DNA of 64,000 bases from Apus apus (lineage: Eukaryota; Chordata; Aves; Apodiformes; Apodidae). Of the stretch, positions 39,418 through 45,400 are shown piece by piece (position 1 is the stretch's first letter; each line of letters starts with the position of its first letter). Where the stretch lies: positions 115,383,008 through 115,447,007 of the forward strand of contig NC_067285.1 of assembly GCF_020740795.1 (NCBI RefSeq), read 5' to 3'. Made by a program: the position numbers and the translations under genes. The notes beneath the pieces are model-generated. The model was not told where the DNA came from, did no database searches, and saw only the letters and a program-made list of their open reading frames with translations.

Positions 39418-42400
39418 CTATGAAATCTGGTTGTTGAGCTGCCCTGGGTACTGCTCAAACCGCTTGTTGGCCTCCTCACTGAGCGCATCACCTGGGTGGG
39501 CAGAGGTGAGAGCTGCTGGCTCCGGCACTCCCCTGTGCCCCTGCGGCGGCCCCCAGAATCCCAGCCCCTGCCTCCCCATGCCAGCCCATCCCCGGCGCCA
39601 CAGCCTGCCCCCAGCCCCAGTGCCCTCCTCCTGGTCCACCCCAGCCAGGACACCCCCGCCCCAGTGCCCCTGGCCTCCTGCACCGCACCCCAGGGCTGTT
39701 ACCGATGTGGCAGCTGTGCACCCAGATGCGGTGCCCGTCGTACTTGCAGTTGCATTTCATGGCATTGTTGGTGAAGTCGCTCTCTGCCACCTCAAAGTTG
39801 GGGTTGATCACGACCTGTGGGGCACTAGCAGTGAGGGTGGCAGCGCCCTGCCCACACCTGGCAGCCCTGCAGCAGGGCAGCTTGGCTTTCCAGTGGAGCT
39901 GCTGCCTGCAGCACGGCCCTCAGCACCCCCAACCCAGCAGGACTTGTCTCCCAGCTGCAGTGGGATGTGCAGTGGGGCTCTGAGGAGCTGGTGGCTGCCA
40001 CTGTGGTCGGGTGGCCTGTCAGCGTGCCCCATATGCCAATGAGCAGTGTGGCTCAGGGCAGGAAAACCCGGGCTGAAGAATGCCTGAGCAGATCCCACAC
40101 AAGCCCAGCACATCCCCAGGCAGGACAGGCACAGCCCCACAGCAACACACACCCCACCAGCCCCACAGTGCGGGGGAGCAGGGCTGAGAGGGCCAGGCAG
40201 CTGGGGACACGGGGAGCTGGAGGGGCAGAAGGGGAGGTGCAGGCGGGGGGCTGCAAGAAGGGCCAGGTTGCTTGGCTGCAGCACCTGCAGGATGTAGTTG
40301 CCTGGTTTGACATCAGTGATGTCGATCCACTGGCAGTCGATGTCGTGCCGGTACAGGTCCCAGCAGCCCACTGTGATGCCCTGCTCCCCAAAGTTGGCAC
40401 ACTCGTACCGCTTGGCCACATCTGAGGGAGGGAGAGCACAGCTTGTCCCTGCTGCTCCTCTGCACAGCCCCTGTCACCCCCCAGCCTGGCCCCAGAGGCT
40501 GCAGTGGCCAGGCACAGGCAGCCCCACAGCAGGGACTCCTGGCACCCACCTTCCTCACACTCGGTGTCCTCGAGGCAGAAGCTGGCCTTGTGTCCCTCTG
40601 CCACCTTGGTGCCATTGGGGGTCAAGATGTCGTAGTGGGTGAAGATGTCCATACTGTGGTAGTGCCTGCAGGAGGGAGCCCACAGCGCCCCAGCTGCACC
40701 AGTGCCCGACACTGGGAGCTCGGGAATGCTGGGGGCGGGGGGGTCCCACGGAGCAGAGCAGAGGCTCACCCTGCCCTGCAGCATGCCCTCCGCCCCCTGC
40801 CCGCCCCTCGCTGCTGGGGAAGGTCCCCTCAGCCCCTGCCCTGAGGCCGCAGTGCTGTGAGGTCAGGCTCAGCTCTGTCCTGACCTGGGAGGGGACATGG
40901 TTGTCCCCAGCCAGGTGGCCCAGGCCAGTGGGGGGCTCAGTTGCAGGACACAGCCTGCAGCCCCATTCCTCCCTCCCAGGGCCCCCAGACCCAGCACTGC
41001 TCATCCAGGGAGAAGTTCTGACCCAAAGCAGGCAAAACTGGACACTGGCAGCAGAAGGTGCCTCACCCAGTGTCACCCTTACCCAGTGTCACCCTTACCC
41101 AGTGTCACCCTCACCCAGTGTCACCCTTACCCAGTGTCACCCTTACCCAGTGCCACCTTTGCCCAGTGCCACCCTTGCCCAGCTCATCCCAGCAGCACCA
41201 TCCCCCTCTCCCCACCTCTCTGACCCCCAGCCCAGGCTATTCCCCAGTCTGTCCCTGTCCCTGCTGTGCACGCACCGGTGGCACTCGTGCCAGACCCAGG
41301 AGTGCCGGCCGGCCTTGGGGCGGAAGTCGGCGCGGCCGTTGTTGTGGATCTGGGAGGAGAAGCGGAGCAGGCGGCGGTGCCCGTAGGGCCAGTTGGCCAG
41401 GCGGGCCGAGCTGGAGAGGCAGTTCTCCTCGGCAGCACAGTACAGCATGTGCAGAGGCCGGTCCTCGATGTATGCTGTCTCCTGCACCAGCGGGGCGTGC
41501 AGCAACAGGTCGGAGGCAGCTGGGGAGCAGGCGGCTGCTCAGGGACAGACACTGCTGCCCGGCCAGCAGCAGGGACAGGGCAGGCAGCAGGAATGAGGCA
41601 GGAAGCAGGGATGGGGCAGGCAGCTGGGATGGGGCAGGAAGCAGGGATGGACCGGGCAAGCCCCCAGTGCAGGCAAGGCTAAGCCAGCTGGGGGAACTGC
41701 CTGCCCTCCCCATCCGCTGGGCACAGGCTGACCCTGCAGCCCTGTCACCTGCAAACCCCATTGCCTCCAGCCCCATTGCTCACAGCCCCTTTCTCTGCAG
41801 CCCCTGGCGCCACAGTGCCACTGCCCACAGACCCCACCACCTGTAGATCCTCTTGCCCACAGACCCCACCACCCACAGCCCCCCTGGCTGCTCACTCTCG
41901 GAGCAGATGACTCCGGCAGCAAAGCGTGTGCCCGTCTTCCTGCAGTTCAGGCTGGTGCCGTGGTGCTGGCAGTGGTTCAGGGACATCTCGTGGCCAGCAC
42001 ACTTCACCCCGCTCAGCACCATCTCTGTCACGTTGCTGGCGTCCCAGTACCACGTCTCCTGGGGACAGGGAGACAGGCTGGGTGGCCAGGCTCGCTGTGG
42101 GCTCCCCAGCTGACATGCGCCCAGGCTGTGGGCAGCATCCAGCCAAGGCACAGCCCTCTGCCCACCTACCCCGGGTCCATCCCACGCACGGAGCGGCCGC
42201 ATCCCTTTGCCCCGCACAGCCCTGCAGCCGCCAGAGGCACCGGCGCCCGCGCTCTCCAGGCTGTCACCGGGTCCCGCCCCGCTGGCACCTACCGTCACCG
42301 CGTGCAGGGAGTAGCCCAGGCCCAGCTGGCGACAGGCCACCATGGCCTCCTTGGTGGTCCAGCCATCGCTGCACACCGTGCCCCACTTACTGCCTCGCTT

Positions 42401-45400
42401 CACCTCCACGCGCCCCTCGGACGCCGTCCTCCCCCCGGCCAGCCGGATCTGCGGGGAGCCCTGGGGCCGTCAGCCGGTGCCCCGCTGCCGCCTCCCGCCC
42501 CTGCGTCCCCGTCCCGTGTCCCCGTCCCTCTCCCCGCGGGACGGCGCTGGTGGCGGCTCGCTGCCCTGGCCAAGCTGGCGCCGGCACCTACTTGCAAGCC
42601 GTGGTTAGCGAATCCCAGCCCCAGCTGGCGACAGGCCACCATCGCCTCCAGCGTACCCCAGCCTTCGCCGCAGACCAGGCCCCAGCGGGGCTCGGCCCCC
42701 TCGACGGCCCCCACCGCCACCTCGACCCGCCCCTCGAAGCGGCTGCGGCCGCCGCTCAGCCGGATCTGCGGAGAGAGGCGGTGGCAGCGCCAGAGTCACC
42801 AGAAGCGGTGCCGGGGGGGCTGCGACCCACGGAAGGGTCCCGCCTGGCCCCAGCACAGCCCCGACGGGCCTCGGGCCGGGGGCTGCAGGGCGCAGAGGGA
42901 GCTGAGCAGAGCCAGGCACAGCTTTTGTCAGCAGGGACCTTGCCAGAAGTGGCAGGTTTGAGGCCAAGAGACTGCTTGTGAGTTTGGAAACTGTCTCACC
43001 AAAGCAGGGAAAATGGTTCATTTTGAAATGGCATTCTCATTTCAGAAATGAGAGTTATGAGAGACTCCAAAATTATTAAAAAGCCCAAAGTGGATGAAAT
43101 GACAGGCCAGGGCAAACAGGAGCACATGGCTTCATTTGCTCATTTCATCATCAGTTAAAAAAAAATATCTCTTGGTTGGACCACAGTGATTTTTTTTTTT
43201 CTGGTGCTTTGGCTGGGGAGCTGGCATGGGTGGGCAGCAGGGAGAGCAGGAGGGTGCAGCTTCCCCACACTGCCCCACACAGCAGGGCCCCACAGGGCAC
43301 CCAGAGTCCCCACAGCCTCCCTCCCACCTCCTGCCTCATGGGAGCACCTTGAGACTCCCCCCCACAACATCCCCAAGCCCCCCAGGGCAGCCCTTGCCTC
43401 AGACCGTGGGGAAGTGTGTGGGCGGCAGAAGAAAGATTATGGCAGCACCCTACAGTGGGTCCCATGGGCCCCCCAAGCACCCCACTCCAGGGTCCCCAAC
43501 ACCAGGAGCCCCCAGGCACTGTGCCCCCCAATGCCAGCAGCCCCCACGGTGCTCACCAGGTTCTCGTAGCCCATGTAGGGGATGTTGCAGCGGACAGCCG
43601 CATCCTCCGTGTGCTTGCAGTCCTCCCGCGTGATGTTCCTGTAGGGGCAGCTCCAGAGGGACTTCTCTGTGCCCAGGCACTGCACCTCATTCAAGTGGAT
43701 GGGCCCTGTCCCTGCAGGGGACAGCGGGGCTCAGGGCCCAGCAATGCAGGGACAGCCGTGGCCATCTTGCCCTCATCCCCCAGGGTGCACCAAGGCAGCT
43801 GGGAGCGCCCCTGGCCCCACTGTTGCTGCCTGGGGCTGAGTGGCTGTGGCCACCAGGGCTGCTTGGGGCAAGCCAGGAAGGAGACAAGCCCAGCCATGGC
43901 CCCCCCAGCCCAGCAGAGCCTTGTGCCCGGACAAGTGCCTCACGGGCAGCCCCGGGAGGGCAATGCTGTCCCCCCCCCAGCACCCTCACCTTGGCCCATG
44001 CGTGCCCCGGTCAGGGCCTCCTTGGCACTGCCGAAGCCCAGCTCCCGGCACACCACGCTGGCCGACTGCAGGTTCCAGCGGTCGTCGCAGATCGTGCCCC
44101 ACTCGCTGCTCCTGAGCACCTCGACACGCCCCTCACCCACCTTCGCACCCCCCTTCAGCCGGATCCGCGCCTGCAGGGAGCGGGTCAGGGCACGGCGGGG
44201 GACATGGGACACATGGTGGGGGTCAGCATGGTGTGGGACATGGGACAGCATGGCAGGAGACACGGGACATGTGGCAGGGGACATGGGACAGCACAGTGTG
44301 GGACAGCACAGTGTGGGACATGGGACACATGGTGGAGGACAGCACGGCGTGTGACACGGGACAGCATGACATGGGACAGCACAGCCTGGCACGCCACAGT
44401 GCAGGACAGAGGCTGCCAGCCATGACTCCCGGGATGTGCAGGGACAGGACACTGTCCCCATCTTCGGCCCCATCAGCTGGTCCTTTTGGGAGCCGCACAT
44501 GTCTGGGGTGCAGCCCAGGGGACAGAGCCCGGCACAGCCCCCAGCGCCCACCCCGGGGGCTCACCTGGCCCTGCTGCTGCTGCCGCTGCTTCCTCTTGTG
44601 GCCGTTGCCGCTGGCGAAGAGGGGCCCGGGCACGCAGCTGACCACGGCGGGCATGCCGGCCCCGCAGGCGGCGGAGGCGTTGCCGCGGTAGAACTGGAAG
44701 GCGCAGAGGGACAGGTGCACCTCTGTCCCCGTGCAGGACACCGAGTGCAGGCGGTAGTTGAGCTGCTGCCGCTCCGTGAAGAGCCTGCGAGGAGAGAGGG
44801 CCCTGAGCGGCCGGCAGGGCAGGTCCCATGGCCACCCCGCCTGTGGCTGCACTGGCTGCCCAAGCCCCTTGCTCTGCCCCGGGGGGGGATCTCCAGCCCC
44901 TCGCTGGCTCCTGCCCCGCTCCCCGGCACCACAGGGACACGCCGGGCCCCGGCGGCACTGGGCGGGGCTCCTGGTGCTCGGGCTCTGCCCTGGAGCCATT
45001 TACCTCTTCTTGGACCCTACGTCCTCCCTGCGCTTTTGTTTAGGCTGAGATTTGGAGGCCAGCCTGGAAAACAGAACAACTGTGAAGGAGCCCGCGGCCT
45101 CAGGCTGTCACCTTTGGCAGCTGCGGTGACACAGGGAGCACAGCCTGTCCCTGCAGACTGAACCGGCCATGCAGGAGCCCCAGGGAGACTCATGCACGTC
45201 CCCTTGATGTCATGCGTGAATGCACCAGCATCATCTGCTGCCAGCAATGTGACAACTGCCCTCCACAGCAACGATGCAGTTTCCTGCCCACATCCCACCA
45301 GGAAACTGCGCCGGATGCAGCAACATCCCGTGTGGCTTTGTCACACAGCAGATCAAACACCACCAGCAACGATTTGATCTGTCGGGTACAAGTGAGGTGT

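Follow-up and report, generated by a model that had tools for sequence, protein, structure and literature searches.

Layout of the LOXL3 gene

We analysed a stretch of 64,000 nucleotides (nt) of the 1.1 Gb Apus apus genome (contig C5:115383008-115447007, hereafter the window), in which the minus strand encodes LOXL3, between about 50.0 and 39.4 kb. The probe, which also served as a row in the comparisons and trees below, was a presumed human LOXL3 sequence; it aligned on successive exons, and the catalytic exons were 70 to 96% identical to it. The domains SRCR1, SRCR2 and SRCR3 were each matched by two exons, whereas SRCR4 was matched by three (10A, 10B and 11, in the numbering of an earlier, sequence-only reading of this DNA). 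That reading had described 10A and 10B as adjacent open exons in phase 0/0, each encoding a first half of SRCR4 with its splice sites and cysteines, next to a single second half. The coordinates, frames and dinucleotides proved to be as described, and exon 11, starting at 42058, is the sole SRCR4 second half. The features around the twin exons are the following (hyphens mark exon boundaries):

43557..43711, minus strand: upstream exon (exon 9), second half of SRCR3; ends in phase 0, donor CTG-GTGAGC; start read from the sequence, matched by the presumed human LOXL3
42592..42765, minus strand: exon 10A, SRCR4 first half in the canonical form ending NHGLQ; 174 nt, 58 residues, acceptor CTCTCCGCAG, donor CAA-GTAGGT
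42449..42591, minus strand: intron between the twin exons, 143 nt
42293..42448, minus strand: exon 10B, putative alternative SRCR4 first half ending LHAVT; 156 nt, 52 residues, acceptor CTCCCCGCAG, donor ACG-GTAGGT
41896..42058, minus strand: exon 11, sole second half of SRCR4, predicted for use with either twin
41276..41519, minus strand: first catalytic-domain exon; start read from the sequence, matched by the presumed human LOXL3, donor scored

Both twins have an open frame in phase 0/0 with the AG and GT dinucleotides present. According to the translations, each first half carries two cysteines, to which exon 11 adds four, and the intron 3' of 10B measures 234 nt. The claim that human LOXL3 has only the form ending NHGLQ agrees with the presumed human sequence and with the eight SRCR exons of the published gene structure. 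Human LOXL3 is described with 14 exons, of which exons 2 to 9, eight in number, encode the four SRCR domains (PMC6678131), as compared with nine SRCR-coding exons in the bird gene.

Homology and origin of the twin exons

Judged by their sequences, 10A and 10B are tandem duplicates. They share 33 of 52 aligned residues (0.635) and 66.7% of the aligned bases. When a small database made up of the window and two loci was searched by tblastn with 10A, 10B was retrieved (E 2.6e-18), and 10B alone scored 54.3 bits against the Pfam SRCR profile (PF00530, curated cut-off 26.1 bits); the likeness is thus not due to chance. The direct repeats, of 106 nt (75% identity) and 58 nt (74%), reached into the introns by some 10 to 13 nt, where the twins have in common the acceptor CTC[T/C]CCGCAG-ATCCGGCTG and the donor flank GTAGGTGCC[G/A]GCG. 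Both twin donors read GTAGGT, whereas in LOXL2 and LOXL4 the corresponding single exon has the donor CAG-GTGAGG and CAG-GTGAGC, respectively. Since the splice flanks of the twins are nearly identical and unlike those of LOXL2 and LOXL4, the two exons are most simply explained as copies of one LOXL3 exon. Past the splice sites, the flanking introns of the twins showed no significant similarity (shuffle fractions 0.948 upstream and 0.096 downstream), and tblastn found no third copy in them, the only match being a chance-level one of 28 residues (E 0.13) at 43694-43774.

We considered an origin of 10B from SRCR3 rather than SRCR4 and thought it unlikely, as it is opposed by the shared splice flanks and by the grouping in the tree, where 10A, 10B and the SRCR4 exons of LOXL2 and LOXL4 stood apart from the SRCR3 exons (support 92/91, 95 in a second run, and 100/98). 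When compared with human LOXL2 (PDB 5ze3), 10A alone aligned to chain positions 118-172 and 10B with the following exons to 118-310, both being SRCR4. On the other side, 10B by itself is best matched by the SRCR3 stretch, and in the tree it tends towards SRCR3 as a long branch, for which the program issued a warning of long-branch attraction between the two.

We also noticed a 23-nt run identical in 10A and 10B (ATGGTGGCCTGTCGCCAGCTGGG on the minus strand, window 42321-42343 and 42620-42642). It holds a TGT codon despite a GC content at third codon positions of 0.90 and 0.92 in the exons, and the run may stem from gene conversion or act as a splicing element in both exons.

In the same genome, LOXL2 (contig C27) and LOXL4 (contig C5, 14.86 Mb) each have a single SRCR4 first-half exon. 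Their SRCR4 is divided between two exons at the same point as in LOXL3, but the donors are of the GTGAG type and there is one first half each: in the introns between the first-half and second-half exons we found no second copy, only chance-level matches.

Selection on exon 10B and age of the duplication

To the extent that the sequences tell, 10B has been under purifying selection at the protein level over its branch as a whole, that is, for most of its history. With a GY94-type codon model written for the purpose and applied to four exons, omega equal to 1 for the branch leading to 10B, which this test covered, was rejected under all three topologies (twice the log-likelihood difference 13.36, 15.73 and 15.65). 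In neutral simulations we started from 10A and evolved it to the observed distance, with 20,000 runs under each of two base compositions. When all the divergence was placed on the 10B branch, the observed amino acid identity was reached in 0 of 20,000 runs in both settings, and an open exon with both cysteines, both tryptophans and no frameshift was retained in a fraction printed as 0.0000. When half of the divergence was placed there, the identity threshold was reached in 0.00025 and 0.00010 of the runs, and 0.008 were open and intact. With neutrality rejected on its branch, 10B did not spend the greater part of its history as a dead relic. Joined to exon 11, it scored 81.7 bits against PF00530 and 10A scored 70.6 bits; the corresponding bird LOXL2 and LOXL4 sequences gave 78.2 and 75.6 bits.

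The divergence of the twins is about that among the LOXL2, LOXL3 and LOXL4 paralogues, as seen from the amino acid identities between 10A and LOXL2 (0.679), 10A and LOXL4 (0.661), LOXL2 and LOXL4 (0.679), 10B and LOXL2 (0.635), and 10B and LOXL4 (0.558). As a yardstick for the separation of birds and mammals, bird and human LOXL2 (5ze3) are identical at 44 of 56 positions (0.786), and 10A gave the same 44/56 against the presumed human LOXL3. The identity of 0.635 between 10A and 10B is lower, so at equal rates the duplication would predate the bird-mammal split, although rates may have gone up after duplication. When the presumed human LOXL3 exon was included in the tree, 10A grouped with it to the exclusion of 10B (support 92/97, and 84/98 in the other run), whereas trees constrained to a clade of 10A and 10B, or of 10A, 10B and human LOXL3, were not rejected (approximately unbiased test, P 0.142 and 0.305, respectively); because the human row is a presumed sequence, we treat the tree result on age as a lead only. 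The best reading of the pair would be an ancient tandem exon duplication.

Splice signals and possible means of exclusion

The sequence-only reading had called the exons duplicated and apparently mutually exclusive. The duplication stands, together with the protein-level constraint on 10B; exclusive splicing is a sound inference from the single second half, although neither frame nor spacing enforces it. Enforcement by frame was rejected, as the exons measure 174 and 156 nt. Enforcement by a short distance between donor and branch point was rejected as well, as the single yTnAy motif in the 143-nt intron has its A at -22, at a distance of 122 nt from the donor. As the choice is forced by neither frame nor spacing, exclusive use would need regulated competition. 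According to a survey, steric interference has potential in just 57 cases (9%) of human clusters (PMC5740500).

The donors were scored with an approximate matrix and ranked among the 567 GT sites in the gene. The donor of 10A scored 2.7 bits (quantile 0.94) and that of 10B 3.7 bits (quantile 0.98), and the exon 9 donor reached 5.2 bits. An in-frame alternative AG lies 12 nt upstream of 10B (window 42449-42460), and its use would add four residues, GSPQ.

RNA pairing was examined for several region pairs and at two sizes. Compared with dinucleotide shuffles, the three intron pairs gave z scores of -4.5, -3.2 and +1.9. For the 180 nt upstream of 10A paired with the intron between 10A and 10B, only 1 of 142 control windows and none of 43 GC-matched windows paired as strongly; in the 395-nt version of this comparison the fraction was 0.170 of 141 windows, and 0 of 29 when matched for GC. 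Between this upstream region and the intron that follows 10B, the pairing stood out less (0.049 of 142 windows at 180 nt, 0.645 of 141 at 395 nt). We found no exceptional single stem across 10A, and the best one was ordinary in comparison with real windows. A docker-selector pairing across 10A is a possible explanation, and we regard it as a weak lead.

Probable alternative use of the two exons

Taken together, we favour the reading, with a probability of about 0.66, that an exon of bird LOXL3 was duplicated in tandem long ago and that its copies, 10A and 10B, have been retained as alternative exons, one per transcript. The exon 9 donor (43557) would join either 10A or 10B, and the chosen twin would join exon 11 (42058). 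The outcome would be two LOXL3 isoforms, identical except for the first half of the SRCR domain beside the catalytic domain, SRCR4. The choice would by default be made through regulated competition, by trans-acting factors or RNA pairing. Both exons are probably spliced in, just one per transcript: as there is a single second half, the two twins together would leave a surplus half-domain, from which we infer mutual exclusion.

Several observations weigh against this reading. 10B alone best matched the SRCR3 stretch of human LOXL2 (5ze3 chain 9-60) and not SRCR4. In the codon model, synonymous changes were saturated and branch lengths stood at their bound, so omega is poorly estimated and its value of about 0.05 is not trustworthy as a number. 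An open frame is by itself weak evidence, being stop-free in 0.27 to 0.33 of the neutral runs, and a recent loss of function of 10B would escape the selection test. Seven other LOXL3 donors were scored as well, and those of exons 11 (1.4 bits) and 14 (-0.1) were weaker than both twins, with exon 12 (3.0) between them; modest donors are thus no mark of alternative exons in LOXL3. 10B has a modest pyrimidine tract, with 10/17 pyrimidines compared with 13/17 for 10A and 14/17 for exon 11. Finally, each exon length is divisible by three, so the frame would survive the inclusion of both exons as well as the skipping of both.

The modest tract would suit an explanation in which 10B is a relic, that is, an old duplicate that is now unspliced and is open by luck or only recently dead, and human LOXL3 seems fine without 10B (PMC6678131). 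We consider this unlikely, given that neutrality was rejected on the 10B branch, that no neutral run in either setting matched its amino acid conservation with all divergence on that branch, and that 10B outscores 10A against the SRCR profile. It is also quite improbable that the exons are used without strict exclusion, one twin being a cassette exon, with both-exon or neither-exon transcripts arising in amounts that matter. The lengths in multiples of three would permit this, and we found no mechanical bar to the joining of 10A to 10B across the 143-nt intron with its distant branch-point motif; however, a partnerless extra first half with two extra cysteines would probably upset the disulphide-bonded fold, and both exons share the phase and the cysteine pattern, as substitutes do. 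Very improbable, in our view, is the use of 10B alone in this lineage with 10A as a fading copy. 10B does have the better fit to the SRCR profile and a slightly better donor, and 10A contains the unusual loop GAVEGAEP, but 10A is open, as close to the presumed human LOXL3 exon as given above (44/56), and provided with the better pyrimidine tract. That the pair reflects a faulty assembly, or that a copy was misplaced from another gene, is hardly credible, and we found nothing in favour of it: one in three aligned bases differs between the copies, which are therefore not a falsely split allele, the best match of 10B besides itself is LOXL2 at 70% identity, and both exons stand in order within one LOXL3 gene.

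If 10A and 10B are indeed alternatives, the differences between them may alter substrate docking or enzyme stability. In comparison with 10A, 10B has six residues fewer in the loop before the RWG/KWG motif, different loop tips, and the ending LHAVT in place of NHGLQ. It contains eight lysines and arginines and four aspartates and glutamates (net +4), compared with six and six in 10A (net 0). The statement of the sequence-only reading that a switch here would adjoin the catalytic domain finds support in LOXL2, for which small-angle X-ray scattering and electron microscopy were fitted best with SRCR4 alone rigidly joined to the catalytic domain (PMC6629125). In human tandem-duplicated exon substitutions, which are mostly ancient, the residues of greatest importance are kept (PMC9741552).

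We also looked at a possible protease site. In bird LOXL3, 10A reads GEG and 10B reads SDG at one position of the exon, with an aspartate after the presumed cut in 10B only. BMP-1 prefers an aspartate after the cut site, and the human motif at this position, GDD, falls within this exon, going by the presumed human LOXL3 sequence. GDD, residues 446-448 of human LOXL3, has been put forward as a putative BMP-1 site by prediction only (PMC6678131). As the site is merely predicted and an aspartate is common here in SRCR domains, we gave this point little weight.

A broader scenario, in which a two-state SRCR4 switch arose in early amniotes or earlier, was kept by birds and lost one state in mammals, and tunes substrate docking and perhaps protease processing, is tentative and rather doubtful. 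An isoform switch in an SRCR domain held against the catalytic domain would amount to a novel means of setting the enzyme's action, and studies of mammalian LOXL3 would then overlook a state that other vertebrates have.

Comparison with known exon pairs

The arrangement resembles tandem-duplicated mutually exclusive exons such as 4a/4b of OGDH and those of PKM, ACTN1 and ACTN4, in which adjacent homologous exons each complete the same domain. The intron between OGDH exons 4a and 4b measures 118-131 nt in birds and mammals, as compared with 143 nt in bird LOXL3, and branch points near the donor enforce the exclusion there (PMC7969005); this device was not found in LOXL3, where the sole yTnAy motif is distant from the donor. 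The human LOXL3 variants sv1 and sv2 resemble the bird pair in offering alternative SRCR content from the same gene, but they drop exons (1, 2, 3 and 5, or 4 and 5), and neither is described as a swap of SRCR4 halves (PMC6678131).

The main texts of PMC9741552, PMC5740500, PMC7969005 and PMC9013439, to which this count is confined, contain no mention of LOXL. No such exon pair in LOXL3 or LOXL2 appeared in the titles or abstract openings among the matches listed, and the peptide strings of the exons were not found in the literature search; public annotation may already hold both forms as predicted isoforms. The exon arrangement is of a known type, and for this gene these searches brought up no such report.

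Additional observations

Scans of the window for Rfam families and tRNA genes gave 0 and 0 matches. Inspection by eye showed that a LOXL3 intron contains a short tandem repeat (window 41075-41175; about GGGTAAGGGTGACACT, minus strand). In the searches beyond this genome, no vertebrate sequence was found in GTDB or IMG/VR, which returned 2 bacterial loci and 0 loci, respectively. The two loci belong to bacterial metagenome-assembled genomes, and the SRCR stretches encoded there have 58 and 61% identity to 10B, which may reflect animal contamination or a bacterial SRCR. Elsewhere on contig C5 (4659798-4687812), eleven tandem SRCR stretches with near-equal scores of 125.5-125.9 bits occupy about 28 kb, probably as the result of a recent SRCR repeat expansion.

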